From positions 4,216,001-4,280,000 of the forward strand of contig NZ_JAGPYQ010000001.1 of assembly GCF_018070025.1 (NCBI RefSeq): a DNA stretch of 64,000 nucleotides. The letters run 5' to 3'. Below the pieces are notes generated by a model. The model worked only from the letters and a program-made list of their open reading frames with translations, searched no databases and was not told where the DNA came from. The position numbers and the translations under genes were made by a program. This document shows, in pieces, positions 9,294 to 33,392 of the stretch. The DNA is from Streptomyces liliiviolaceus (GTDB lineage Bacteria; Actinomycetota; Actinomycetes; Streptomycetales; Streptomycetaceae). The number at the start of each line of letters is the position of its first letter. Within the stretch, counting starts at the first letter, position 1.

Positions 9294-10109
9294 ATGACGA
9301 GCCCGAGGCTGACCATCGACACGCCTGCCGGTCCCGTACACGCCACTGTCAGCCCCCGCGACGGCGACGCCGTTGTGTTCGAGCTGGGCGGGGCGATGCG
9401 CGGCAGCGTGCACGTCACCGGCACCACCGACCCCCATCACTGGGACCAGTTCACCGCCGTACGCGCCTGTCTCGGTCCCGTGAACGCCTTCACCACCACC
9501 GCCCCCGACGAGGACCTCCCGCGGCTCGCACGCGGCCGCATCGGCTACTGCGGCAGCCTGACGCTCTACCGCGACCGCTTTGACTGTCCTCAGGTCTCGG
9601 TGCGTCAGCTGTCGGCCACCTCTGATAAGCCGCCGTCGGAGAAGACGGAAGTGGTGCTCACGGCCGTCCTGCGCGGGTGCGCCGAGCACGTCGCGCAGCG
9701 CGCCGATCTGCCCGCAATCCTGGAGGCCTCCCGGCAGCGCGACACCCCCGGCCTGCTGCGCTTCCTCACTTGGTCCGCCGCCTATCACCACGCCGAAGCC
9801 GTCCGTCTGGAGCGCGAAGCCCGGGCAGCGCTCCTCGCACGGAAGGCCGCCGAGGCCGCTTGGCGGACCGCCGCGCAGTGGCTCTCCCTCTCCCCACACC
9901 CGGTCCTGCTGCTGATGCTGGCCGACTGCCCCGACTCGCTGACCCGCAAGATCAGGGGCTTGCAGTGGTGGGGTCCCTACTGTGTCGACGCCGCCGCTGA
10001 AGAGCTCGAGCGCGCACGCCGCGCCCAGGCGGAAGCCGACTCCCTGCGTGCTCAGCAGGGTGGGCGTCCGCCCTGCCGCCGCGGCCTCGCCCTGCCCGAG
10101 GGTGGCTAA
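9294..10109 (+). CDS. Hypothetical protein, helical C-terminal half
   Basis: ATG 9294 follows GAGGAG and gives 271 residues (an earlier in-frame start at 9171 lacks a ribosome site). The N-terminal half has beta-rich composition. Residues 125-260 are Ala/Arg/Glu-rich helices, with E-A-V-R-L-E-R-E-A-R-A-A near 165 and a tail rich in charged residues suggesting a coiled coil. No family is recognised. It lies just before a tRNA-like gene. Confidence 0.6.
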   Translation: MTSPRLTIDTPAGPVHATVSPRDGDAVVFELGGAMRGSVHVTGTTDPHHWDQFTAVRACLGPVNAFTTTAPDEDLPRLARGRIGYCGSLTLYRDRFDCPQVSVRQLSATSDKPPSEKTEVVLTAVLRGCAEHVAQRADLPAILEASRQRDTPGLLRFLTWSAAYHHAEAVRLEREARAALLARKAAEAAWRTAAQWLSLSPHPVLLLMLADCPDSLTRKIRGLQWWGPYCVDAAAEELERARRAQAEADSLRAQQGGRPPCRRGLALPEGG

Positions 10110-18992: not shown

Positions 18993-20864
18993 CTACGGCA
19001 GGGCGTTGACGAGAGGCTTGAGGGCACTGTCCATCAACCCACCGTGTCGGGCTGGTGCGTCGGGCTGTGCTCGCAGGACGTGCAGTATGTGGTCACGTAC
19101 GGCGGCGTTGCGCAAGCTGCCGGACTGCTTGCTGCGCAGGATGTCGAGGAGGCTGGGGCCGGAGACGTCCTGCAAGGCTTCGATCATCTCCAGTTCTTCG
19201 ACGTCGACGATCTCCACCAGATCCGTGTCCGGCGTCGTGAACAGCCCCTTCTTCCGAGCGCGTTCACGGATCACGGTCAGGGTGATGGGGTTGACAGGGA
19301 AGCCTTCCGGCAGCACGAGTAGCGGCAGGAAGCGACGATCGCTGGCAGCAGGAGCGCCGGTGAGAGCAGCCTCGTCGCCGCGCAGCGCAGCAATGGTCGC
19401 GTCGATCTGGTCGAGTTCGTCGACGAGTTTGTCGATGTCCTCGATCTGTGATTCGCCGGGTACGGCAGTGGCGGCTTCGCGGCGTAGCTGGGTGGTGGTG
19501 ACCTCTATGACGATCCAGGTGCCGGGATAGTCAATCGCGGCGTCGGCTATGCGCTGGCCCTGGACGGTGTAGGCGGCCTTGAGTTCGGCGTCGTCGTAGA
19601 CCCGGCGCGTGGTGCCTTCGTCTCTGGTAATCGCGTGCAGGACTTCGCTGACGTACAGCTCACTGCAGTGGCGCAGGGTCTGCTTGGCCCGGGCGGCCAT
19701 CTTGCGGTGACCGGTGGGCTTGGTTCGCCCTGACGGCGGGAACTCGATGTCCCAGATCGGCAGCCATCCAAAAGCCCGGCTGATCAGGTGACGGGGATCA
19801 AGGATCAGCAGCCGGTCCTCGGGCAGGCGGATCACGGGCCACTGCTGGAAAGGATCGAAGGACCATTCGGTGCGCTGTTCGGGGCGTTCGCCGCGTACGG
19901 CCTCCCGCATGCCGGGCAGGTGGTTGGTGATCAGCGCCAGGACTGCCTCGACGCGCTCCGCGGGCATGGTCAGGCCAGCCAGTTCACCCGGCTCGATGAC
20001 GAACCGCCCCATCGTGGTGCGCAGCCACAGATAGCCGGCGACGCCCGCCAGGTCCTCCAGGCGGGCGCCGGTGCATGCCTGGTAGGTCTGGCTGAGGTCG
20101 ACGATTCCCGGCTCGCCGTAGTGTTCGGCGGGCAGTTGCAGCCAGCGCCGCGCGTATCGGGCGAGGACGCCCGGGACGGACCAACCGCGGTGGAAGTGCT
20201 GGTTGGCGATGAGTTCGCGGCCCAATGTGCCGGGCCGGTCCGTGATGACGCTCGGGCCGGGATCAGGGTGGCGGCCCATGGCCTGGGTGAGACTGAAGAG
20301 AGCACCGACGATGTCCCCGTCGGGGGGATCGTCCGGCGCTGTGTCCGGGGATACTTCCAGGGCCATGCGAGCCAGCAGCATGAGGGCCTGCGGCACAAGC
20401 AGCCTGCGGGTCTCGTCCCGGAGCAGGTTCCGGGCGCGGCTGCGGACCGGCTCATCCAGCCACTCCCCGGCGAAGTGAGCCTCGACTGCCTGCACGGACA
20501 CACCGGGAAGCTCCAAGGCGTTGAGCACCCGGGCACAAAACCGTGTGACGCCTTCAAGAGGAAGGCGCTCCAGCTGACGCATGGCGTAGTCGACGGGCAG
20601 TTCGAACCCGAAGATCTCATCAGGGGTGAGATACGCCGCTCCCAGGTCGATCGGCGCGGGTGGCTGGACGGTGGCGGGCACCAGCAGCCCGCTGGAGTGC
20701 TCGTTCCAGCGGGGCACGAGAGCCGTCGCGGTGGAGCCCTGCAGTACCGGACGACCGGCCGAGGGATCGGCCAGGTAGCCGGTACGCAAAGACGCGGGCT
20801 CGGCATCCGTGAACGCCTTGCTCAGCGTTTCGATCTTCTGGGCGAGGCGCTCTGCCGCGTTCAT
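18993..20864 (-). CDS. Large protein of unknown function downstream of the E1/JAB gene
   Basis: ATG 20864 (GTG 20870 is an alternative) gives 623 residues with no signal peptide or membrane helix. Residues 1-400 are helical and not recognised. Around 430-460 the run A-D-A-A-I-D-Y-P-G-T-W-I-V-I-E-V-T-T has the strand-turn-strand order of a PD-(D/E)XK nuclease core, but the last motif residue is Thr rather than Lys, so it may be a relic or another alpha/beta domain. It starts 133 bp after the E1/JAB stop on the same strand. By position it is the best candidate for the target or effector of the ubiquitin-like system; this is inference. Confidence 0.65.
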   Translation of the reverse strand: MNAAERLAQKIETLSKAFTDAEPASLRTGYLADPSAGRPVLQGSTATALVPRWNEHSSGLLVPATVQPPAPIDLGAAYLTPDEIFGFELPVDYAMRQLERLPLEGVTRFCARVLNALELPGVSVQAVEAHFAGEWLDEPVRSRARNLLRDETRRLLVPQALMLLARMALEVSPDTAPDDPPDGDIVGALFSLTQAMGRHPDPGPSVITDRPGTLGRELIANQHFHRGWSVPGVLARYARRWLQLPAEHYGEPGIVDLSQTYQACTGARLEDLAGVAGYLWLRTTMGRFVIEPGELAGLTMPAERVEAVLALITNHLPGMREAVRGERPEQRTEWSFDPFQQWPVIRLPEDRLLILDPRHLISRAFGWLPIWDIEFPPSGRTKPTGHRKMAARAKQTLRHCSELYVSEVLHAITRDEGTTRRVYDDAELKAAYTVQGQRIADAAIDYPGTWIVIEVTTTQLRREAATAVPGESQIEDIDKLVDELDQIDATIAALRGDEAALTGAPAASDRRFLPLLVLPEGFPVNPITLTVIRERARKKGLFTTPDTDLVEIVDVEELEMIEALQDVSGPSLLDILRSKQSGSLRNAAVRDHILHVLRAQPDAPARHGGLMDSALKPLVNALP

Positions 20865-21003: not shown

Positions 21004-22497
21004 TCATCGGAGTCGGTGCAGGAGGTCGTCGACGGCGCGCCAGGCGCGGAGCGGCCAGCGGCGTACCGCACGGGCACGAGCATCGCGGACCTGTTCAGCG
21101 GCCCGGTGCCGTCCCGTGACGGTGACGGGGGCGTCGTCGCCGAGCGCCCGCAGCATGCCGTCGTAGGGGCAGCCCGTCTCGCAGCCATTCTCGCGGTGGT
21201 CGAGGGTGGCGGTGGTCAGGTGGTACAGGTGGGCGCCGGTGTCGGCGATCCCGCCCGGTGCGGTCGTCATGGTGACGAACTGATTCAGCTGCGCGGCCGC
21301 GGCGCTGTTGGAGAAGACGAAGACGTTCTCCTTGCGGCGCAGCGGGTGGTCGGCGGGCAGGCCGGTGATGTAGGCCGGGTCGTCGAGGGAGCCGTCACGT
21401 TCGGCCTGGACGTGGGCGGGGTCGTACTGGCCCAGGCATTCCATGCAGGCGCGGCCGGGGGCGGCGATGTGGGCGCGCCATTCGGCGCCGCGCAGGCGTC
21501 CGCCGCGGGCGTCGACCGCGATGCCACCGTCGACAACGGGGATGAGGTGGGCGTAGGCGAGGAGGTTGAGGACGGCGCGGGGCCAGGGCCGGTCGACGCA
21601 GGAGAAGATCACGTCGCAGTCGGCTGCGGCGGCGAACCCGTCCGGCTCGGCCACGCTCAGCTCGTATGGCGCCGCCCGGAAGTTGAGGGCGGTGGCCGCG
21701 CGGCGAGAGGTGCGGGCGGCGAGGCGGGCCTTGGCCCGGTGCAGGCGCACATCACGGATGGTGGCGTGCAGGAGCCGGTCGAGGTTGAGCTCCTCTACGG
21801 TGTCGAAGTCGAACAGGCTCAGGTTCTGGAAGCCGGTGCGGGCCAGGGCTTCGACGACAAGCATGCCGACCGAGCCGCATCCGACGACACCGACATGCAG
21901 ACGGGCCAGGTCGTCCTGGGTTGTCTGTCCCCAGGCGGAGACGGTACGCAGCTGCCGGTTCGTAGCCGGCGGCGCGGGAAAGAGGCGGTCGTTGACGGTG
22001 ACCGTCAGACGGCCGCCGACCACCCGGACGCTCTCTGCCTCGGTAGGAACGTAGCGGCGGCGGGCCTCCTGCTGCCAGATACGTGCGCCGAATCCGGCAT
22101 CCGCGCCCGCGAAGGTCAGACCGACCAGCGAATGTCCGGTGATCACCTGGGTCTGCGCGGCGAAGGACACCTCAGCCTCGTGATCAATCGTGTTCAGTCG
22201 CTGCCATCCCCGGCCTTGGGGATGGGCGTGGACGAAGCCGAGCCCGCAGCCGTGCTCGGCCGCGAGCGCGGCGGCGCGCAGGAAGTAGGCGCTGGTGAAG
22301 TCCACCGTGCCGTGCACAATCCGCTCGCCGTCCTGCGGCAGCACCACCTCGGTGAGCAGGGCTGTGGTGCGGCTGGCGCCGGTGCTCGGCCGCCACAGCA
22401 CAAAAGTGCAGTCCTCCTGCCCGTCCCCACGGCGCAGGTGATCCGTCAGGCGCTGGGCGGTGACGCTGGTCATCGCGACCGAGAAGCGGCTGATCAT
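21004..22497 (-). CDS. E1-like (ThiF) activating enzyme fused to an N-terminal JAB peptidase domain
   Basis: The 497-residue protein joins two activities. Residues 30-170 form a JAB/JAMM metalloprotease-like domain with Glu50, His90-x-His92-Pro and Asp105; the usual Ser three residues before Asp is Asn102. Residues 195-450 form a ThiF/E1 domain: nucleotide loop G-C-G-S-V-G at 206-211, F-D-F-D at 229-232, N-L-D-R at 238-241, a candidate catalytic Cys300 in F-S-C-V-D, and two Cys pairs (351/354 and 439/443) that could bind zinc. It would adenylate the C-terminus of the Ubl protein, and the JAB part could process or remove it. ATG 22497 overlaps the E2 stop by 4 nt (ATGA). Confidence 0.88.
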   Translation of the reverse strand: MISRFSVAMTSVTAQRLTDHLRRGDGQEDCTFVLWRPSTGASRTTALLTEVVLPQDGERIVHGTVDFTSAYFLRAAALAAEHGCGLGFVHAHPQGRGWQRLNTIDHEAEVSFAAQTQVITGHSLVGLTFAGADAGFGARIWQQEARRRYVPTEAESVRVVGGRLTVTVNDRLFPAPPATNRQLRTVSAWGQTTQDDLARLHVGVVGCGSVGMLVVEALARTGFQNLSLFDFDTVEELNLDRLLHATIRDVRLHRAKARLAARTSRRAATALNFRAAPYELSVAEPDGFAAAADCDVIFSCVDRPWPRAVLNLLAYAHLIPVVDGGIAVDARGGRLRGAEWRAHIAAPGRACMECLGQYDPAHVQAERDGSLDDPAYITGLPADHPLRRKENVFVFSNSAAAAQLNQFVTMTTAPGGIADTGAHLYHLTTATLDHRENGCETGCPYDGMLRALGDDAPVTVTGRHRAAEQVRDARARAVRRWPLRAWRAVDDLLHRLR

Positions 22498-22865
22498 GCG
22501 CAGGATCCGTTCCCCAGCTGCGTGAACAGGGTGCGCAGGTGCCGCAGATAGCCGCGGACCGTACGGTCCTGCGCCCAGTCGGAGGGCGGCCGGCTCCAGT
22601 GCTCCCACTCCTGCCCCAGCGGAGACGTGTGCACCGCGCCCTGCGGATGCCCCAGGCACGGGCTGATGTGCGGGCCGTGCGGGGCCGACAGCGGCCAGTC
22701 CGGCACCAGCTCCAGCCCGACGCGCACCGTCGTCCCGGCCCGCGGGCCGACCTCGACGAGGTAGTCAAAGACCGCGAAGTTGCCGCTCTGCTCCACCGTG
22801 TAGCCGGCCCGGCGCAGGCCCGCGAGCATCCCCGCGGGCCCTGCCTGCGGCATCACCGCGGTCAT
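22494..22865 (-). CDS. E2-like ubiquitin-conjugating protein (prokaryotic E2 type)
   Basis: The 123-residue protein has the compact form of the prokaryotic E2 families that occur beside multi-ubiquitin and ThiF genes. Visible are Y-L-V-E-V-G near 36, the central H-G-P-H-I-S-P-C-L-G-H-P near 63-74 with Cys70 as the only internal cysteine, a W-x-x-W pair at 87-90, and a C-terminal amphipathic helix (R-G-Y-L-R-H-L-R-T-L-F). Cys70 is the likely thioester site; Cys122 at the very end is an alternative. It overlaps the genes on both sides by 4 nt. The assignment rests on context and motif order. Confidence 0.75.
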   Translation of the reverse strand: MTAVMPQAGPAGMLAGLRRAGYTVEQSGNFAVFDYLVEVGPRAGTTVRVGLELVPDWPLSAPHGPHISPCLGHPQGAVHTSPLGQEWEHWSRPPSDWAQDRTVRGYLRHLRTLFTQLGNGSCA

Positions 22866-23125
22866 GCGGTCGGGGTCGGGCCGGTGGAGACCGACACGAA
22901 CGTCTCCCGCTCATGCACGGTGATCTCTTCCTCCCCACGGCCGGCGAACGAGTGCTGATGCCTGCCGGTGATCCGGACCAGGTAGTGCGTGCCCGCGTCG
23001 ATACCAGCCAGGCCCAGGACCGCGTTCGGCGTCGTGCGCTTCGTCACCGCGACCGGCTCGCCGTCCACGGTGACGGTCACCGTCTTGCCGCTGATCTCCT
23101 CGTGCTGGATGTCTGCCGTCGTCAT
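22862..23125 (-). CDS. Ubiquitin-like beta-grasp protein (multiubiquitin-domain type)
   Basis: ATG 23125 behind GGGGAGG gives 87 residues with one beta-grasp unit: V-T-V-T-V-D-G-E-P-V, a helix at T-T-P-N-A-V-L-G-L-A, and strands Y-L-V-R-I-T-G and E-E-I-T-V-H-E-R-E-T-F. It ends in V-S-V-S-T-G-P-T-P-T-A, the tail type of the Multi_ubiq family, and has no C-terminal Gly-Gly. It is presumably the modifier activated by the E1 and passed to the E2. The stop overlaps the E2 start (ATGA). Confidence 0.8.
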   Translation of the reverse strand: MTTADIQHEEISGKTVTVTVDGEPVAVTKRTTPNAVLGLAGIDAGTHYLVRITGRHQHSFAGRGEEEITVHERETFVSVSTGPTPTA

Positions 23126-23180: not shown

Positions 23181-23199
23181 GGCGGGCTCGAAGCCCGCC
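23181..23199 (-). terminator. Intrinsic terminator at the end of the small basic protein gene
   Basis: GGCGGGCT and AGCCCGCC form an 8-bp stem with a 3-nt loop that overlaps the TAG at 23199-23201. On the minus strand TTTCG follows. It would end or attenuate transcription before the Ubl operon. Confidence 0.65.
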
Positions 23200-23351
23200 T
23201 ACTTGCTCTTCTTCGAGCCGCGCGACGCGCGCTCGTTCACCGTCGTCGACGGGTGCCTACGCACCGTCGACTGCTTCACAAACCGGCCCGTGACCGCACT
23301 CCGACCACGCTTCCCACCAGACCCACTCGCCTTACTGGCCTTGCCGGACAT
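23199..23351 (-). CDS. Small basic protein, paralogue of the one at 32.2 kb
   Basis: ATG 23351 gives 50 residues. The core GRSAVTGRFVKQSTVRRHP, followed by T-T-V-N-E, is nearly identical to the protein at 32175-32306; both ends are Lys/Ser-rich. Such short R-S-A-x-T-G-x-F-V-type proteins occur next to regulator genes in many bacteria, with unknown function. Here both copies sit next to an XRE-ImmA/IrrE pair. The size and charge would fit a nucleic-acid-binding or regulatory peptide. Confidence 0.7.
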   Translation of the reverse strand: MSGKASKASGSGGKRGRSAVTGRFVKQSTVRRHPSTTVNERASRGSKKSK

Positions 23352-23475
23352 GACACACCTCCTGTTCCCAGAGGCCACATCGGCCCCTGCCAACACACCC
23401 AGGACAGCACGCACGGCACCACATTGGCAACATTTTTTGAGTGACAATTTCCCTGTCGTATGTTGACACAAGAAA

Positions 23476-23518: not shown

Positions 23519-24037
23519 TTACGCCATTGGACCCGCGAGGATGCCGAGATTGATCAGCCGGTAACTCATGGCCATTTCGCTCATCTCAAAGCGCCCGGCC
23601 ATGAGGTGCACCAACTCCTGGGCCGTACGGAACTCGGCCTCGCGTGCTGCGCGACGCACCATGGGCTCAGGAGCCAGCAGAGCCGCCGCGAAGCGGTTGG
23701 CTTCCATCTCCTCACGATCCGTGGCCATGCTTGAGACCGTGTCACGGAAGTTGACACGGGTATCGGTGTCCAGGATCAGCGGCCGGCCGCGATGCAGTCG
23801 CAGGTGCCCGAGTTCATGAGCCACCGTAAAACGCCGCCGGTTCTCGTGGTGCTTCTGGTTCACACCGATGACCTGCTCGTCTCCCCGGCGCAGCAGCATG
23901 CCGGAAACGTCGTCCGGCATCTCCTGCGGGACGACAAGCACACCCAGCTTTTCCGCAATCAGCGCCGGGTTGATGGGCGCCTCGTCGATGCCGAACTGCG
24001 TCAACAGCGCCTTGGCCGCCGCGTCAGACCTGGCCAT
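23519..24037 (-). CDS. ImmA/IrrE family metallopeptidase, copy 1
   Basis: This 172-residue zinc peptidase has the motif V-A-H-E-L-G-H-L-R-L-H near 80-90 (HExxH) and the downstream E-E-M-E-A-N-R-F-A-A-A-L-L near 118-130 that supplies the third ligand. Members cleave or inactivate a partner XRE repressor, as ImmA does to ImmR, or drive a damage response, as IrrE does. ATG 24037 lies 14 nt inside the XRE gene, so translation is coupled. Confidence 0.88.
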   Translation of the reverse strand: MARSDAAAKALLTQFGIDEAPINPALIAEKLGVLVVPQEMPDDVSGMLLRRGDEQVIGVNQKHHENRRRFTVAHELGHLRLHRGRPLILDTDTRVNFRDTVSSMATDREEMEANRFAAALLAPEPMVRRAAREAEFRTAQELVHLMAGRFEMSEMAMSYRLINLGILAGPMA

Positions 24038-24350
24038 CGCGCACCCTCCGTTCAAACGCCTCCGACGCCACAGACGCCACCGCGTCCGCAAGATAGTCCG
24101 GCAGCCCGTTCACCTGGCCGGGCTCCTGCAGTCCCGGCAGCAGGTCGGCCGGCTCCACCCCGAGCGCTGACGCGAGGCGCACCAACCGGTACGGCGGAGG
24201 AGCTTGCGCGCCGGACTCGATGTTCGTGATCGACCCGCGCGTCAGTCCCGCCTTCCGAGCCAGCAACTCCTGCGTCAGCTTCGCTCGCGCCCTCGCCACG
24301 CGCACCCGCCGACCAATCTCGGCATTGAAGTCCCGCTCAACATCGTCCAC
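24024..24350 (-). CDS. XRE-family repressor, copy 1 (ImmA partner)
   Basis: GTG 24350 behind GGGGAG gives 108 residues; an upstream ATG at 24470 adds a Gly-rich unconserved leader and is rejected. The helix-turn-helix is clear: V-A-R-A-R-A-K-L-T-Q-E-L-L-A-R-K-A-G-L-T-R-G-S-I-T-N-I-E-S-G near 17-46. It would bind operators near its own promoter and be relieved by the ImmA/IrrE protein. The pair sits directly upstream of the small basic protein and Ubl genes on the same strand, so it could control them. Confidence 0.82.
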   Translation of the reverse strand: MDDVERDFNAEIGRRVRVARARAKLTQELLARKAGLTRGSITNIESGAQAPPPYRLVRLASALGVEPADLLPGLQEPGQVNGLPDYLADAVASVASEAFERRVRDGQV

Positions 24351-24738
24351 GCCGCTCCCCGCGATGACAGCCACACTGACATTCCAACTTAGCCCACCCT
24401 CACCAAGACCACCACAGCCGCCCCGTACTAAACCCTCGGCCAGACCGTTTCGGCAGATTCCCGCTGCCACAGTCCTGGTCCAGGATCACCTTGATCTGGC
24501 TGCCAGCTCTGAGCCGCCGAACCCTCCCGAGGAAGTCCCTCTCTGACAGCCTCGGCTGAGGCACCCGTCTTGTCGGGAGTACGCGGGGCGCCGGGCCCGC
24601 AAAAGCCTGCGGTACGCGCCGCACGTGCTCTTTCGGCGCCCGCCTGCCTAGAAGCGCTGCCGAAGCAGGGTTCTTCCGGCGAACGCTGATGCCTTCACCG
24701 GGCTTGTCACAGTGACGTCCGAGCGAAAGGAAACGTCG
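24351..24738. other. Intergenic region before the XRE operon
   Basis: No gene is convincing. The XRE promoter should lie in the AT-richer patch at 24370-24400 (around AAGTTGGAATGTCAG on the minus strand). No inverted repeat as clear as the one at 32.35 kb is seen. Confidence 0.4.
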
Positions 24739-25029
24739 ATGCTGTCGATGGCACTGGCCCGCGCCGCGGTGCGCCCCCTTACGAGGGCGTGTGGTGGGAT
24801 GTGGCAAACGGTACGCAGCTGGGTTGAGGGTCGGCAGGCCCGGCTGTTCGAGCGTGAGCGCCGGACCACCCTTCAGACCGTGCCCGCCGCGGTCCCGCAC
24901 GGCGCGTGGATCGTCGACCGCCGCGCGGACGGGAGCAGCCTGGAGCTGCTCATCCCGCCGGGCGGCTCATACCCCGATGTGCATGAAGGGCGCCCACAGT
25001 CCGGGGCTTCCGGGATACTGCTCCCGTAG
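24739..25029 (+). CDS. Hypothetical protein converging on the CHAT gene
   Basis: ATG 24739 gives 96 residues. The first 74 look genuine (basic helix W-Q-T-V-R-S-W-V-E-G-R-Q-A-R-L-F-E-R-E, then G-A-W-I-V-D-R-R-A-D-G-S-S-L-E-L-L-I-P-P-G). The last 20 overlap the 3' end of the CHAT gene on the other strand and may be run-on beyond a lost stop. Function is unknown. Confidence 0.5.
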   Translation: MLSMALARAAVRPLTRACGGMWQTVRSWVEGRQARLFERERRTTLQTVPAAVPHGAWIVDRRADGSSLELLIPPGGSYPDVHEGRPQSGASGILLP

Positions 25030-28000
25030 CCGCCGGGTGGCCACGTGCAGGGCGATCGCGGTGAGCCCGGTGCGCGGAGGAAGGGTGCCCGCGGCGGTCA
25101 GGTGCGTGTACAGGGTCGTCGCGGTGCGCGCGGCGACCTGGTCCTCGACCGCCCACAGCGTCCCGACGACGTGCGCGGCGCCTGCGGCGAGGAAAGAGGA
25201 GGCCAGATGCACAGCTTCGTCCGGCAGCCGCTCGCCGGCTGCGCTCGAACTGCACGCAGACAGCATCACCAGTCGCGTCCCGTCGAGCCGGTGGTGCAGC
25301 AGGTCACGCACCGACAGAGCCCCGTCCGCGAGCACCAGTCGGTTCGCGGACGGGTCCTGCCAGTCCGTCACACCGTGGCATGCGAAGTGCACAATGGGAT
25401 GCTGGCCAAGCTCGGAGAGCACGGTGGCGCGGCTCGCCTCACCGTCAGCCAACAGCGTGGTTTGCGGCATCATCTGGGCCACGGCCTCCGCCTCTTGGTG
25501 CGCATACGGCAGCGGAGGTACTCCCGGCGTGTTGGGCATCGCGACAACCAGGGCGCGACCGTGTCGACCCGCAAGGTGCGGCAACTCGCGGCGTGCCCGG
25601 CGGCGGCTCGCGGCCAGAGCCTGGACAGTTGGCGTGTAGGAGGAGACCACTCGGTCCAAAGCCGAGTCCCCGCCGTCTTGGTGGCGACCTGCGGCGTGCA
25701 GCGGCAGGCACGCCAGCAACCCGACTGGGCACCACCACACGCGCGGCCAGGGCCCGTCGTTGGCGGGCGTCGCGGTGACACCCAGGCTTTCCAGCACCGG
25801 CCCGACCGCGGAATCCCACAGCCACGCAAGTGTCTGAGAAACCTGCGACTGCGCACCCCACACCTTCCTGTGGAAGTTGTTCACGTGCGTAGCCAACTCA
25901 TCTGGTGTGAGGCCCGGCAGGGGTATGACATGCAGCGCGTCCCGTGGCCCCGCGCCCAGTACGAGTGCGTCGCTGCGGTGTCCGGCGACGTTCACAACGA
26001 TGACCGGGCCGTCATCGGGGTCCGGTCGCAGGTCATCGACCGTAAGCGGAAGGAGGAAGCGGCTGAAGCCGGGCAGCGCGCGGATCCGAGCGATCGTCTC
26101 CTCAAAGCGCATGCCGCCCGACAGCCGCGCGTCCGCATCGGCCTCAGGGGCCGACAGGGCGTCTCGCAGCCGCTGGAACTCGGCGTACAAGGCCGGCTCG
26201 CGCTCGGCCAGTTCCTCCAGCTCACCGCGCGCGGTGAGCACCTCACCGAGCAGGATGCCCCGGGCCTGCTCCAGCAGTTCCAGGGCGAGCCCCGGACGCC
26301 CCGCGTCGAGCGCGGCGGCGGCGGCCTCGGAGCCAAGTCCGGCTAGCCGCCCGAGCCGGTACTCACGGTCATCCCGGCTTAGCGAGGGCGGTGCAATGCG
26401 CGGCAGCAGTCCCACGGCCAGCTCAAAGCCCTTGACGGTCTCGGCAGAGTCGCCGTCCCGGCGGGCTGCGTCCGCATAGGCCCACGCGGCCCTCATCCGG
26501 ATCAGCGGGGGTGCGTCCGGAGGCTCGGCAGCGGCCCAAAGCGCCATGCGGCCTTCTGCGGCATCCTGTGGGTCACGGGCGTGGTCGTGCCGCAGACGCA
26601 GGGCATTGCCCAGATTGGCAAGCTGAGCGGCCCGGCCGGAATGCTTGTACGGAAGGGCCGCGACCGCCATCCGCAGCAGCCCGATCGTTTCATCCAGGTC
26701 GTCAACAGCGCCTGCGCCACACTCGAAGCGCGTGCGCAGGATCGCGCCAAGATTACCGAGGCGGGCAGGCCACGCCGGGTGATCACCGGGCGTGGACTCG
26801 ACCGCCGTGCGGGCGGCCTCCACCGCTTCCGCCAGCATTGAGGGATCGCTGGTCAGCGTATGGCGGCTGCGCAGGGCGTTGGCGAGATTGCTCAGCTGCG
26901 CGGCGCGCTCGGGGTGCCCGGGCGCCAGCAGGGGGATAGCCGCGCGCAGCAAAGTGATCGCCTCATCGAGATCCTCACGGGCGCCGCCGTTCAGGAAACG
27001 GGCCCGCAGCATCGCCGCCAGGTTGCTCATCCGGCCAGCCTGCACCTGGTGGTCCTCGGGCATCGACTCGACCGCCGTCCGGGCGTACGCAATTGCCTCT
27101 GTAAGAGCCGCCGAGTCACCGATGTGCTGGTGGAGCAGCCACAGTGCCGTGCTGATCTGTGCGGCCGCTGCCGGGTGGCCTGGATCTGTGGACGGGAGGC
27201 TGGTCAGGATCGAGCGCCGTAGGCGGACAGCCTCGAACAGGTCCTCTTGGTGGCCGGCGTGGTGGAAGCGTTCCTGGAGCGCGGCGGCCAGGCCGGCGAG
27301 CATGTCGGCCCGGTGCGCGTGATCCTCAGGGATCAGTGTGGCGGCTTCCCGGGCGGCGCGCATCGCTTCCCCCAGGCCTGCGGGGTCGCCGGTGCGGTTG
27401 TGCCAGCCGAGCAGGGCCTGGCCGAGGACGTGCAGCCGTGCCGGGTACTCCGGTGAGCCCGGAGGCGTCTGCGTGAGTGCCTCGCGCAGGAAACTCAGCG
27501 CCTCGGAGAGCGCGCGCTCGTCGCCGGTCCGGGAGAAGGTCTCGTACAGGACGGCCCCGAGGTCGCCGGACGTATGGGCGCGGCTGGCGCCGTCCAATGC
27601 GGCCTGCACCGCTCGCCGCGCGGCGTGCACGGCCTCTTCAAACCCCGCGGGATCCCTTTTGTGGCCGAAGCGGGCGAGTAGCGCGACTGACAGGACGGTC
27701 CAGGCCATGCTCCCGTTCACCGTGCGGGTGAGCTGTGTCTCGGCGCGCGCGGTGTCGAGGCAGACCGTCAAGGCCTCCTCGTCGCCGGTGTCCTCGTACA
27801 GGGACAGCAGCGCTTCGGTGAACTGCAGCAGGATCAGGGGACGGTCTGGCGATGCCTCGGGTGCGCCGTCGAGTGCCGCCGACAGGAGTTGCACGGCCGT
27901 TCGCAGGTCGGCGGGGTCGCGGGTGCTGCCGTACCGGTCAAGGTACGGCTGTGCCATGCCGCTCCAGGTGACCGGACTCTCCTGCTGTCCCGGGTCGGCA

Positions 28001-28338
28001 GAGGTGTCGATCAGCGGCAGCAAGGGGTCAGGGACCGCCAGGGGGTCGCGGCGGTGAATGCGGGAGAAGAGCGCGACCGCCGCCGCGAAGTCGTCGTCCT
28101 CTTCCTCGTCCCTGGAGTCTTCTCCGCTCAGGCAGTAGCGGTTCCAGTGCACGAGGGCCGCGACGCGGAGCGCCTCCAGAATCGCCGGCTCCGCATCGGG
28201 ATCCCTGCACTCCGGCGGAAGGGCGGCCACGAGGACACGGGCCTGCCGGGCGGCCATGTCGTCCAAAAGCGGTGCAGCGTCGCCGCACTCGGCCAGTGCG
28301 GCGAGCCGGGCCTGCAGGGCTGCAAGCAGAGCGGCCAT
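24967..28338 (-). CDS. TPR-CHAT protease (caspase-like)
   Basis: This 1123-residue protein has an N-terminal array of tetratricopeptide-like helical pairs (about 20-700; units such as A-Y-A-R-T-A-V-E-S-M-P-E-D-H and L-G-N-L-G-A-I-L-R-T-R) and a C-terminal CHAT domain with the dyad His988 in V-H-F-A-C-H-G and Cys1029 in M-L-S-A-C-S-S. CHAT proteases cut partner proteins after activation; in CRISPR-linked (Craspase) and gasdermin systems they are defence effectors. It is the third gene of a minus-strand set after a sigma factor and a small protein, 113 bp downstream of the latter. A proteolytic sensor or effector role is likely; its target is unknown. Confidence 0.88.
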   Translation of the reverse strand: MAALLAALQARLAALAECGDAAPLLDDMAARQARVLVAALPPECRDPDAEPAILEALRVAALVHWNRYCLSGEDSRDEEEDDDFAAAVALFSRIHRRDPLAVPDPLLPLIDTSADPGQQESPVTWSGMAQPYLDRYGSTRDPADLRTAVQLLSAALDGAPEASPDRPLILLQFTEALLSLYEDTGDEEALTVCLDTARAETQLTRTVNGSMAWTVLSVALLARFGHKRDPAGFEEAVHAARRAVQAALDGASRAHTSGDLGAVLYETFSRTGDERALSEALSFLREALTQTPPGSPEYPARLHVLGQALLGWHNRTGDPAGLGEAMRAAREAATLIPEDHAHRADMLAGLAAALQERFHHAGHQEDLFEAVRLRRSILTSLPSTDPGHPAAAAQISTALWLLHQHIGDSAALTEAIAYARTAVESMPEDHQVQAGRMSNLAAMLRARFLNGGAREDLDEAITLLRAAIPLLAPGHPERAAQLSNLANALRSRHTLTSDPSMLAEAVEAARTAVESTPGDHPAWPARLGNLGAILRTRFECGAGAVDDLDETIGLLRMAVAALPYKHSGRAAQLANLGNALRLRHDHARDPQDAAEGRMALWAAAEPPDAPPLIRMRAAWAYADAARRDGDSAETVKGFELAVGLLPRIAPPSLSRDDREYRLGRLAGLGSEAAAAALDAGRPGLALELLEQARGILLGEVLTARGELEELAEREPALYAEFQRLRDALSAPEADADARLSGGMRFEETIARIRALPGFSRFLLPLTVDDLRPDPDDGPVIVVNVAGHRSDALVLGAGPRDALHVIPLPGLTPDELATHVNNFHRKVWGAQSQVSQTLAWLWDSAVGPVLESLGVTATPANDGPWPRVWWCPVGLLACLPLHAAGRHQDGGDSALDRVVSSYTPTVQALAASRRRARRELPHLAGRHGRALVVAMPNTPGVPPLPYAHQEAEAVAQMMPQTTLLADGEASRATVLSELGQHPIVHFACHGVTDWQDPSANRLVLADGALSVRDLLHHRLDGTRLVMLSACSSSAAGERLPDEAVHLASSFLAAGAAHVVGTLWAVEDQVAARTATTLYTHLTAAGTLPPRTGLTAIALHVATRRLREQYPGSPGLWAPFMHIGV

Positions 28339-28450
28339 CACCGTAGGCCTGCCGGGCCACCGAGCGAGTGATCAGCCCACGCCGGAGGGATGCCGTACGA
28401 GCCCAAGCTGGCGGTTGTACGGCATCTCGCCCGCGCACGCCGGGAAAGAA

Positions 28451-29924: not shown

Positions 29925-32086
29925 GGTAAAACGGACGAGGCCCACGGAACCGCTGGCGATCTTGGCCGTCCGTGGGCAGCGATCCACGACAACGCCCGTA
30001 TCCCGGCGGACTTCCGGTTCTACCTCACTGCCACCCCTCGCATCCTCGCCGCGGCCCGCCCGCAGAAGGGCACGGACGGCCAGGAGGCCGAGATCGCGAC
30101 CATGGCCGACGACCCGGAGGGCACCTACGGCACGTGGCTCGCAGAGCTGGGTCTGAGCGAGGCCATCGAACGCGAAATCCTTGCCGGATTCGAGATCGAC
30201 GTGCTCGAGATTCGCGATCCCTCGCCGGTTCTCGGGGAATCGGAGGAGGCGCGGCGGGGCCGGCGCCTGGCGCTCCTGCAGACCGCACTTCTGGAGCACG
30301 CCGCGGCGTACAACCTCCGTACGCTCATGACGTTCCACCAGAAGGTCGAAGAAGCCGCGGCGTTCGCGGACAAGCTGCCCGAGACCGCTGCCGAGCTGTA
30401 CGCCAACGACGCGTCCGACGCCGACCTGGCCGCCGCGGACAAGCTCCCCGCGTCCTCGATCGACGCGGAATTCTACGAGCTGGAGGCCGGCCGCCACGTC
30501 CCCCCGGACCGAGTGTGGTCGGCCTGGCTCTGCGGCAACCACCTCGTGGCCGAACGCCGAGAGGCGCTGCGCCAGTTCGCCAACGGCATCGACGCAGCCG
30601 GGCACCGGGTCCACCGCGCGTTCCTCGCCAGCGTTCGCGTCCTCGGGGAAGGCGTCGACATCACCGGCGAGCGAGGAGTCGAAGCGGTGTGCTTCGCCGA
30701 CACCCGCGGCTCGCAGGTGGAGATCGTGCAGAACATCGGCCGGGCACTGAGGCTCAACAAGGACGGCTCCACCAAGGTCGCCAGGATCATCGTGCCGGTG
30801 TTCCTGGAGTCGAACGAGGACCCGACCGACATGGTCGCCTCCGCGAGCTTCAAGCCGCTCGTAGCGGTCCTCCAGGGCCTGCGCTCGCATGATGAGCGCC
30901 TGGTCGAGCAGCTCGCCTCCCGCGCGCTCACCAGCGGCAAGCGCAAGGTCCACGTCCAGCGCGACGAGAACGGGCAGATCGTCGGGGCCCGCGGCGGGAG
31001 CGACGGCGAGGACCAGGACCACGACGACGACACCGACGCCGCTACCGAGTCTGCGCTGCTGCACTTCTCCAGCCCACGCGACGCCGCGACCATCGCCGCG
31101 TTCCTCCGTACTCGGGTGTACCGGCCGGAGTCCCTGGTGTGGCTGGAGGGCTACCAAGCCCTCATCCGGTGGCGGGCGGAGAACGAGATCACCGGCCTCC
31201 ACGCCGTGCCCTACGACACCGAGGTCGAGGTCGGGACGACGAAGACGTTTCCGCTTGGCCGGTGGGTACACCAGCAGCGCAAGGCGCTGCGGACCGGGGA
31301 GCTGGAGGAGCGGCGCAAGACCCTCCTGGACGCCCCGGAGGCCGGGATGCTCTGGGAACCGGGCGAAGAAGCGTGGGAGGCCAAGCTGGCCGCCCTGCGG
31401 TCGTACCGGCGGGCCACCGGGCACCTCGCGCCGCGTCAGGACGCCGTCTGGGGCGAGGGCGACGCGATGGTGCCCATCGGACAGCACATGGCCAACCTCC
31501 GGCGCAAAGGCGCCAAAAACGGCCTGGGCAAGGACCCGGAGCGGGCCTCCGCACGCGCGCAGCAGCTGACGCAGATCGACCCCGACTGGAACTGCCCCTG
31601 GCCGCTGGACTGGCAGCGCCATTACCGCGTCCTCGCGGACCTGGTCGACGCCGACGGCCAGCTGCCAGACATCGCACCCGGCGTGCTGATGGACGGCGAC
31701 GACATCGGCAAGTGGCTCCAGCAGCAGACCCAGCCCGGCACCCGGGCGCAGCTGTCGACCGAGCAGCAGGAGCGGCTGACCCAGCTGGGCGTCACGCCCG
31801 TGGAGGCGCCGTCTCCCGCACCGGCCGCCAAGGGTGCGACGAAAAGGCCAGAGCAAGGCGCAGCAGGCGTTCCAGCGGGGGCTTGGCGGCGCTCGCGCAG
31901 TGGGTCGAGAGGGAGGGCCAGCGGTCGGTTCCTCGCGGCCACAGCGAAGAGATCGCGGTCGGCGGCGAGGCGGAGCCGGTGGCCGTGAAGCTGGGTGTGT
32001 GGGTCTCCAACACCAAAACGAGGCGGGACAAGCTCACCCAGGACCAGCTCGACGCACTGCGCGAGTTGGGGGTGGAGTGGGCGTAG
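29925..32086 (+). pseudogene. Decayed helicase, copy B (C-terminal part with helicase-associated domains)
   Basis: From G-K-T-D-E-A-H (29925) this copy follows the same protein as copy A but lacks the ATP-binding N-terminus. It keeps motif III (L-T-A-T-P), the C-terminal lobe (V-L-G-E-G-V-D-I-T-G and Q-N-I-G-R-A-L-R), an acidic Asp-rich linker near 31010 and helicase-associated repeats (L-G-R-W-V-H-Q-Q-R and I-G-Q-H-M-A-N-L-R-R). Near the end the frame slips twice: at the AAAA run near 31842 and near 31890. The normal terminus (L-R-E-L-G-V-E-W-A) is reached in a third frame at 32086. From ATG 30102 one frame runs to 31988. It cannot be an active helicase. Confidence 0.8.
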
Positions 32087-32338: not shown

Positions 32339-32387
32339 GTCTCGACTTCGAGACGGTACGTCGAGACTAGATCACCAGTGTCGTGAT
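32339..32387. promoter_or_regulatory. Operator-rich divergent promoter of small basic protein and XRE-ImmA
   Basis: GTCTCGAC (32339-32346) and GTCGAGAC (32360-32367) form an inverted repeat, with an inner TCTCGA-CT-TCGAGA palindrome at 32340-32353. A second inverted repeat ATCAC-7-GTGAT follows at 32371-32387. These are the expected binding sites of the XRE protein encoded at 32437. Confidence 0.7.
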
Positions 32388-32436
32388 AGTCAAACAGTGT
32401 TTCGGAAGTGACTCCTCTGGGATCGGAAGGACCGAA

Positions 32437-32814
32437 GTGGCCAAGGACCAGATCGACGTCGACGCGCTCTACTCGGCGCTCGACGCCCAGCGAACCGCCC
32501 GCGAGCTCTCCTGGCGGCAACTGGCCAAGGAACTTCAGGTCAGCCCGTCCTTGCTCTCCCGGATGGCCAACGGATTGCGCCCGGACGCGGACGCCTTCAT
32601 CACCCTGGTTCAGTGGCTCGGAGTCCCGGCCGAGCAGTTCGCAGTGGGGGGTGAGGCGCCTGCGCAGCGAGATGAGCCAGAGCTTGTCACGCAAATCGGA
32701 TCACTGCTCCGGGCACGTAAGGACCTCGAACCCGAGGACGTCGCGTATCTGGAGGTCGTCATAAACGCCACGGTGCGCCGTGTGAAGGCCTTGCCACGGG
32801 ACAAGGAGGCGTAG
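32437..32814 (+). CDS. XRE-family repressor, copy 2 (ImmA partner)
   Basis: GTG 32437 behind GGAAGG gives 125 residues. The helix-turn-helix is L-S-W-R-Q-L-A-K-E-L-Q-V-S-P-S-L-L-S-R-M-A-N-G near 21-43. The C-terminal half is helical and acidic. Inverted repeats just upstream suit autoregulation. Its stop overlaps the ImmA start by 1 nt (TAGTG). It is only distantly similar to copy 1. Confidence 0.82.
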   Translation: MAKDQIDVDALYSALDAQRTARELSWRQLAKELQVSPSLLSRMANGLRPDADAFITLVQWLGVPAEQFAVGGEAPAQRDEPELVTQIGSLLRARKDLEPEDVAYLEVVINATVRRVKALPRDKEA

Positions 32815-33392
32815 TGCGAAGAGGGTTCAAGGCCGAGGCGAAGCGCCTGGCGCTGGAGGTCAGGGAAGAACTCGGCGTCACGACGCACGAAGCGATGGAC
32901 CCGTACACCCTCGCCGAGCTCTACGGCATCGACGTCTTCACCCTGCACGACGTCACCGAAGACCACTCCGAAGCGACAGCCGCCCTGCGCCACTTCACCG
33001 AAATCCGGCCCGATGTCTTTTCCGCAGCGGTCCTGTGCCTTGGCCGCCGCCTGGTGATCGTGGAGAACTCCGGGCACGAACGACCCCGGCGGTCTTCCAC
33101 CCTCGCACACGAGATGTCCCATATCCTCCTTGAACACAAGTTCACTACGCTGCTTCGCACCTCGGGACGCGAGTGCCGCAACAGCGACCACGACCAGGAG
33201 AGCGAAGCAGCAGAACTCTCCGGGGAACTGCTCCTTCCTTCGGATGCGGCCCGCCGACTGGCCTACAACGGTGTAGACGACGAATCTGTGGCTGCCCGCT
33301 TCGGTATCAGCACCGAGTTCGCGCGCTGGCGGATGAATGTCACGGGAGCCCGACTCATAGCTCAACGTGCAAAGGCCCGAAGCAGCCGCTGA
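32814..33392 (+). CDS. ImmA/IrrE family metallopeptidase, copy 2
   Basis: The 192-residue protein has L-A-H-E-M-S-H-I-L-L-E-H near 99-110 (HExxH) and a following E-S-E-A-A-E-L-S-G-E-L-L-L-P near 129 with the third-ligand Glu. The start is GTG 32814, coupled to the XRE gene. It would switch off its partner repressor in response to a signal. It carries a longer C-terminal helical part than copy 1. Confidence 0.88.
   Translation: MRRGFKAEAKRLALEVREELGVTTHEAMDPYTLAELYGIDVFTLHDVTEDHSEATAALRHFTEIRPDVFSAAVLCLGRRLVIVENSGHERPRRSSTLAHEMSHILLEHKFTTLLRTSGRECRNSDHDQESEAAELSGELLLPSDAARRLAYNGVDDESVAARFGISTEFARWRMNVTGARLIAQRAKARSSR

Follow-up and report, generated by a model that had tools for sequence, protein, structure and literature searches.

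A Bub-type operon with a Ser/Ala-tailed ubiquitin-like protein downstream of a CapH/CapP-like gene pair in Streptomyces liliiviolaceus

Core genes and their relatives

We analysed a 64-kb stretch of the Streptomyces liliiviolaceus genome (hereafter, the window), the minus strand of which carries three genes encoding a ubiquitin-like protein (Ubl), an E2-fold protein and a fusion of a JAB (JAMM) domain with an E1 (ThiF) domain. In the direction of transcription, a helix-turn-helix (HTH) gene, an M78 metallopeptidase gene and a 50-aa open reading frame (ORF) precede the Ubl, E2-fold and JAB-E1 genes, and a 623-aa ORF follows them (Table 1). A first-pass annotation, made from the sequence letters, had described the three core ORFs with ATGA overlaps at both junctions (Ubl/E2 and E2/JAB-E1), a Ubl that ends in TGPTPTA without a C-terminal Gly-Gly, and the residues Glu50, His90, His92, Asn102, Asp105 and Cys300 of JAB-E1 and Cys70 of the E2-fold protein; all were present as described. 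The minus strand, the upstream HTH/M78 pair, which resembles CapH/CapP, the 50-aa ORF and the 623-aa ORF are additions to that account.

The three genes are a real Bub ('bacterial ubiquitination-like') operon, corresponding to type 6e of Iyer, Burroughs and Aravind (2006). The layout agrees with the earlier assignment to the operons described by Aravind and co-workers. The core ORFs are not products of chance because relatives exist for each and other genomes have them in the same order; among the matches listed, the closest named relatives were from Streptomyces. The closest solved relatives are BubCD and BubB of the Citrobacter Bub system (BubA, BubB and BubCD; PDB 9ea4, 9ea5, 9ea8, 9eae and 9eav). 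As in that system, JAB-E1 could be aligned over both domains (residues 14–405 with BubCD, E 2.2e-23), and the E2-fold partner carries a [W/Y]-x-x-W-S motif. The structure model of the E2-like protein gave BubB as its best fold match, and that of the Ubl best matched multi-ubiquitin proteins, supporting the beta-grasp fold that had been proposed and that BubA shares. Sequence searches of solved structures returned nothing significant for the Ubl profile, the window E2 protein or a Variovorax Ubl.

Relatives of JAB-E1 were taken as the best 120 of 2866 matches (8000 candidates scored). All 120 Ubl matches and the query formed a set of 121, of which the profile alignment holds 58, and the best 120 of 375 E2 matches, the query and 14 loci formed a set of 135, of which it holds 55. 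At E ≤ 0.01, Multi_ubiq (PF14452) was detected in 23 of the 58 aligned Ubls and Prok-E2_E (PF14462) in 36 of the 55 aligned E2s, the window proteins themselves having no match. The operon thus combines an N-terminal JAB domain on E1 with a Multi_ubiq-kind Ubl and a Prok-E2_E protein without the canonical catalytic Cys, both assigned by kinship. Seven proteins (three core, four neighbours) were scanned with PADLOC; no CD-NTase family was among the matches listed, which for E1 were 25 of 29, in keeping with the earlier statement that this is not a type II CBASS. The kinship to Bil proposed at the same time holds insofar as Ubl, E2, JAB and E1 occur together, but it is looser than that to Bub. 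Bil (BilABCD) has separate JAB and E1 proteins, a two-domain Ubl and a CEHH cysteine E2 (PMC11354881), whereas the window has one JAB-E1 polypeptide, one Ubl domain and an E2 Cys that is not conserved.

Table 1. Features of the operon and its surroundings (window coordinates unless a locus is named)
Feature	Position	Strand	Remarks
Ubl (BubA-like), single beta-grasp domain, 87 aa	22862-23125	minus	tail STGPTPTA-COOH
E2-fold protein (BubB-like, Prok-E2_E kin), 123 aa	22494-22865	minus	invariant Ser91; Cys70 not conserved
JAB (JAMM)-E1 (ThiF) fusion, BubCD-like, 497 aa	21004-22497	minus	ThiF 6.9e-28; Citrobacter BubCD 2.2e-23
CapH-like HTH repressor, 108 aa, GTG start inferred	24024-24350	minus	HTH_31 2.1e-13; PADLOC capH 7.6e-8
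CapP-like M78 metallopeptidase, HELGH, 172 aa	23519-24037	minus	PADLOC capP 5.3e-34; Peptidase_M78 3.3e-20
Putative CapH operator, capH promoter	24365-24381		TGTCAGTGTGGCTGTCA, read on the minus strand; 1 mismatch to TGACAG-N5-CTGTCA
Putative CapH operator upstream of operon	23442-23458		CGACAGGGAAATTGTCA, read on the minus strand; 2 mismatches to TGACAG-N5-CTGTCA
HigA-like HTH/M78 protein + 125-aa partner, CapHP replacement	L003 7469-9037		PADLOC PD-Lambda-2_B 1.3e-29 (L003 HTH/M78)
Basic (Lys/Arg-rich) 50-aa ORF, apparently first gene of transcription unit	23199-23351	minus	
623-aa protein, downstream, facultative neighbour	18993-20864	minus	no family match

Active sites, the Ubl tail and the Trp-Gln clade

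Conservation in JAB-E1 was assessed in 140 proteins, i.e., the query, the 120 listed relatives and 19 distant loci. The JAMM residues His90, His92 and Asp105 were invariant (140/140), as the first-pass annotation had read them. Its choice of Glu50 as the JAMM glutamate was rejected, since this position varies; Glu28, which was kept in at least 97% of the proteins and aligned with a Glu of Citrobacter BubCD, is most likely the residue in question, judging from the alignment. The Asn102 that had been singled out proved to be a clade-level substitution confined to close kin (Asn in 61 and Ser in 60 of the 121 close proteins; Ser in 19/19 distant loci), and we rejected it as a sign of an inactive JAB. 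Cys300, proposed as the E1 thioester site, was kept in 120 of the 121 close and 18 of the 19 distant proteins. However, this conservation proves little because the corresponding MoeB residue is also a Cys, at which MoeB is not known to form a thioester, and the proposal was not retained. The ATP-site residues Gly206, Gly211, Asp230, Asp232, Asn238, Arg241, Lys256 and Asp302 were invariant in 13 diverse rows, and four cysteines of E1 (Cys351, Cys354, Cys439 and Cys443; Cys4) resemble the zinc cysteines of MoeB. A second ThiF-like E1 (32% identity) is encoded on another contig of the same genome (C3:42886-43422; L002, L060).

In the E2-fold protein, position 91 was Ser in all 135 aligned sequences (121 proteins and 14 loci), even in members less than 20% identical, whereas Cys70, the candidate thioester site of the first-pass annotation, was Cys in three, the window's own among them; Cys70 was rejected as the active site. 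The Citrobacter pathway reportedly uses an oxyester, with which the invariant Ser91 is in keeping.

The Ubl tail was conserved to its last residue. Among the 121 Ubls, 115 end in P-T-[P/Q]-x-[S/A], and the last residue over the whole set is Ser in 79, Ala in 37 and another in five. The remaining six appear to be truncated, shifted or extended; one continues for four residues beyond the motif. In a JAB-E1 tree of 43 proteins (the window, 12 of the 120 close proteins and 30 loci), a branch with 100/100 support split 27 proteins with a Trp-Gln insertion from 16 without it. The insertion sits in the JAB catalytic loop, between the JAMM His and Ser/Asn-x-x-Asp, and was found in 119 of the 121 close proteins. 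As the tree is unrooted, the word 'clade' assumes a root outside this group. According to record titles, the clade comprises Actinomycetota, Chloroflexota, Planctomycetota, Pseudomonadota, Gemmatimonadota, Bacteroidota and Thermodesulfobacteriota, several members being metagenome bins.

We then compared tails on the two sides of the split. Terminal Ser/Ala was found in 16/16 window-type loci (the window, L011-L013, L015-L022, L031, L032, L047 and L071) and was directly followed by a stop codon in 15; in L017, the frame continues into the E2 domain. A counterpart of Gly82 was present in seven of the 16, and Gly within the last four residues in none. Of 12 stand-alone Ubls outside the clade (L026, L027, L029, L033, L034, L051, L063-L066, L072 and L073), all but L065 had Gly among their last four residues (11 of 12), and five Ubl-E2 fusions (L030, L067-L070) had a Gly close to the presumed junction, placed by eye. 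Terminal Ser/Ala also occurred outside the clade (L026, L034 and L065) and alone fails to separate the groups; therefore, Gly in the last four residues was used as the criterion. The tails of L035-L042, close kin of the window that stand outside the count of 16, all read STGPTPT[A/S] (8/8). L047 and L051 were placed by the JAB loop alone, and the counts leave out the partial, broken or unexamined loci L014, L023-L025, L028, L043-L045, L048-L050 and L052-L062. In L011, the Ubl frame of Paractinoplanes lichenicola (9342-9568) contains an in-frame stop, which reflects a broken gene or a sequencing error.

A tblastn search of 45 loci with two DUF6527 proteins found this gene in L029, L030 and L033 only; annotation adds eight plasmid loci, all outside the clade (L064, L065, L067-L070, L072 and L073). 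DUF6527 does not strictly define Gly-tailed Bub because some outside loci are without it: the tblastn search was negative in L026, L027 and L034, and the gene is unannotated in L063 and L066. The window has neither a Gly in the last four Ubl residues nor DUF6527 after E1. The differences in the tail, in the JAB loop and in DUF6527 all fall on the same split of the tree, and their association counts as a single evolutionary event.

Three features set the window clade apart from the Citrobacter type, for which structures have been studied: the Ubl end, the JAB loop and the accessory gene. At the C. koseri plasmid locus (L030), genes for an ATP-binding and a DNA-binding protein precede the operon, a likeness to the window; unlike in the window, Ubl and E2 form one 363-aa protein with a Gly at the presumed junction, the JAB loop has no Trp-Gln, E1 has no Cys4 and a DUF6527 gene follows. 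Type 6e, with one to three Ubl repeats, an RWD-like E2 and JAB-E1, shares the window's gene content and order, including an E2-like protein without a catalytic Cys between Ubl and JAB-E1; unlike type 6e as described, the window has the conserved Ser/Ala end, and no metal-binding (DUF6527-like) gene was found there. The multiubiquitin cassette of Synechocystis plasmid pSYSX likewise unites an HTH/M78 pair, a Ubl (there multiubiquitin), E2 and ThiF, but its Ubl protein is longer and ends in TTTEG, DUF6527 is present and the HTH/M78 pair is divergent to the operon.

The kind of operon is already known; the new parts are the Ser/Ala-tailed variant and the regulator swap described below. No title or abstract opening among the literature records named the Ser/Ala tail, which is not a claim of absence from print, since key Bub papers were not covered. 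Judging from conservation, the mature Ubl of the Trp-Gln clade probably ends in Ser/Ala, a tail that the Trp-Gln loop of JAB would read. We would go further only tentatively, rating the following as somewhat short of an even chance: across the seven phyla, the Ser/Ala carboxylate would be conjugated, a serine oxyester would form on the Cys-less E2, and the Ubl would be removed by a Trp-Gln-loop JAB that reads -x-[S/A]. Textbooks describe ubiquitin chemistry in terms of glycine and cysteine. The clade seems to keep neither while keeping the rest of the machinery and can therefore serve to test how far this chemistry can drift.

The upstream pair and its replacement

The CapH-like and CapP-like genes overlap and lie directly upstream of the candidate immune operon, as in CapH+CapP controllers, and comprise an HTH repressor and an M78 protease with HExxH (HELGH). 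Such pairs are published as a DNA-damage switch; 219 of 544 Bub operons adjoin CapW or CapH+CapP, and regulators of this kind also control BREX, Pycsar, CBASS and DISARM operons (PMC13373217). The two putative CapH operators are the best two pattern matches in the 64 kb of the window. In L004, L006 and L010, in which the CapH-like relatives are 94–96% identical, the perfect palindrome GACAG-N5-CTGTC is present in exactly two places, one at the capH start and one ahead of the 50-aa ORF; elsewhere, the pattern gave two matches in 34 loci and one more in L041. Another candidate palindrome, TGTC-N7-GACA, occurred at chance level and was rejected.

We compared 13 distinct Streptomyces-type loci (the window, L003-L010, L036 and L040-L042; four further loci have an identical JAB-E1). 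CapHP was present in four, and a HigA-like HTH/M78 protein with a 125-aa partner in nine, the contig of L008 stopping short of the HigA part. The partner matched no Pfam or PADLOC family, and 'HigB-like' is a label from its position only. In six of the nine, a palindrome, TTTCAT-N15-ATGAAA, precedes the same 50-aa ORF. Near-identical operons with an unrelated HTH/M78 module and a different palindrome represent a natural regulator swap. Among 15 more distant window-type loci, eight have a recognisable regulator: LexA in L012, a STAS/ATPase pair resembling CapK+CapS in L011 (the ATPase match being below cut-off), and HTH/M78 or M78 forms or HigA/RelE in L013, L015, L016, L020, L031 and L032. The LexA-like repressor of L012 (8669-9271) is divergent to the operon and lies beside a cytosine methylase-like gene recognised by eye. 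The swap provides a natural experiment on the wiring of candidate immune operons to DNA damage, and it suggests that the 'toxin-antitoxin' pairs reported beside multiubiquitin genes in 2016 are switches.

The distribution is typical of a mobile accessory system that occurs sporadically. Some JAB-E1 match at E ≤ 1e-3, mostly generic ThiF, was found in 50 of 295 Streptomyces-genus genomes, and 12 of 296 genomes of the phylum matched the wider family at E ≤ 1e-30. Relatives were found in 131 plasmid records, 36 of which cover at least 80% of the query, all at less than 60% identity. No phage record contained a relative, and viral contigs gave two weak matches (26–27% over approximately 120 residues); a phage or viral carrier was therefore rejected.

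Proposed mechanism, rival explanations and neighbouring genes

We consider it probable, by a fair margin, that the locus is a protein-conjugation operon of the Bub type controlled by a DNA-damage switch. The CapH-like repressor, bound to the paired palindromes, would keep both the operon and its own gene silent; in response to single-stranded DNA arising from DNA damage or from phage DNA, the CapP-like protease would cut CapH and the operon would be expressed. This step is inferred from published CapH+CapP work; homology, gene order and the palindrome shared by the two promoters support it here. The E1 domain, which keeps its ATP-site residues, would adenylate the Ubl C-terminus with ATP. The Ubl would probably pass as an oxyester to Ser91 of the E2-fold protein, proposed as acceptor because no dedicated E1 or E2 thioester Cys was recognised, and then to target proteins. 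JAB may take the Ubl off conjugates and separate it from E2 where both form one polypeptide. The likely function would be stress- or phage-induced protein conjugation, both conjugation and phage defence being putative.

Several observations weigh against this proposal. A profile search against Multi_ubiq, Prok-E2, JAB and ThiF had been suggested in the first-pass annotation; ThiF was confirmed in JAB-E1, whereas Prok-JAB stayed below its cut-off and the window Ubl and E2 proteins matched no Pfam family above cut-off. A near-full-length JAB-E1 was found in only nine of the 295 Streptomyces genomes, its own included (70–100% identity). Unlike in the published controllers, the HTH protein scores RmrA (9.5e-10) above capH, and the M78 protein also matches RmrA. 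Sites with at most two mismatches were not enriched genome-wide (192 vs 220 in the reversed control), so that the window operators, with their one and two mismatches, rest on position and relatives; the four CapHP loci are approximately 90% alike and therefore not independent. No damage regulator was recognised in seven of the 15 distant loci (L017-L019, L021, L022, L047 and L071), of which L047 was unexamined and L019 and L021 were examined in part. Conjugation, the Ser91 oxyester, the Ser/Ala end and phage defence are inferences, and protection against phage by Bub operons is stated to be undemonstrated (PMC13373217).

The rival that bears most on the tail is conventional glycine chemistry, in which JAB would trim PTPTA and expose Gly82 for conjugation as in other Ubls. 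Of the 115 motif-bearing Ubls, 111 do have Gly82, most stand-alone Ubls outside the clade have one to three residues after Gly, and in the deposited Citrobacter structures BubA comprises residues 155-229 with BubB numbered on (aligned 240-361), indicating processing of a fusion. We nevertheless regard this route as unlikely, though a serious contender, because nine of the 16 window-type loci have no Gly at this place while all 16 have terminal Ser/Ala, and conservation to the last residue is not expected of a discarded tail. Moreover, JAB would have to cut a Gly-Pro bond, the L017 fusion retains the tail through Ser ahead of its linker, and residues 229 and 230 of C. koseri L030 are Asn and Gly, so that these data do not show a cut exactly after Gly. 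A sulfur-carrier role for the Ubl in a ThiS/MoaD-like small-molecule pathway, with no protein conjugates, appears very improbable. E1 belongs to the ThiF/MoeB superfamily and has zinc-type cysteines like those of MoeB, but the Ubl has no Gly-Gly for a thiocarboxylate, its E2-fold partner carries an invariant Ser, the nearest relatives are BubCD and BubB, and no biosynthetic genes were noticed beside the operon in the window or the annotated plasmid loci, where no systematic search was made.

As regards the upstream pair, a toxin-antitoxin module that stabilises the cassette without regulating it would agree with Kopfmann et al., who found 70% of PF14452 proteins adjoining COG2856/DUF955-protein loci and read the association in this way (PMC4963859). 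The HigA/M78-type module in the same position at nine Streptomyces-type loci, with its PD-Lambda-2_B match in L003, points in the same direction. This explanation is improbable in our judgement: in L004, L006 and L010, the capH promoter and the operon promoter carry the same palindrome, the swap partners include the regulators LexA and the STAS-domain/ATPase pair, and CapH+CapP is published as a switch (PMC13373217). A general DNA-damage or stress response that is not primarily anti-phage is compatible with the proposed mechanism, and we give it a substantial chance, slightly below even. Undemonstrated phage protection and the near-absence of relatives from phage and viral records favour it, whereas the CHAT-domain neighbour, the more distant HTH/M78 pair and helicase-related gene, the control of BREX, Pycsar, CBASS and DISARM by such regulators (PMC13373217) and the plasmid records expected of accessory genes speak for defence.

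The 50-aa ORF was 88–98% identical in close Streptomyces-type loci and 68% in L040, and was not detected in L041 or L042. No family was found above cut-off when it was scanned as a longer 90-aa ORF; its product could be a substrate, regulator or leader. The 623-aa gene adjoins the operon in L003, L005, L008 and L036, and a relative (74%) occurs in G104, a genome outside those with a JAB-E1 match; an obligate effector role was therefore not supported, and the protein is probably not a core part. It contains a conserved IADAAIDY..TWIV.EVTT.QL, by eye a possible nuclease-like motif, which resembles that of PD-(D/E)XK nucleases. In G068, a 54% relative is found close to each end of one chromosome.

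A 1124-aa CHAT-domain protein (24967-28341; CHAT 4e-45, TPR below cut-off) is encoded on the minus strand just upstream of the CapH-like gene; its gene may be a separate defence or cell-death gene. Farther away, a second HTH + M78 pair (32383-33392, plus strand) lies beside a gene for a helicase-associated protein (30102-31988) with similarity to part of type IIG restriction enzymes (PADLOC 5e-17).

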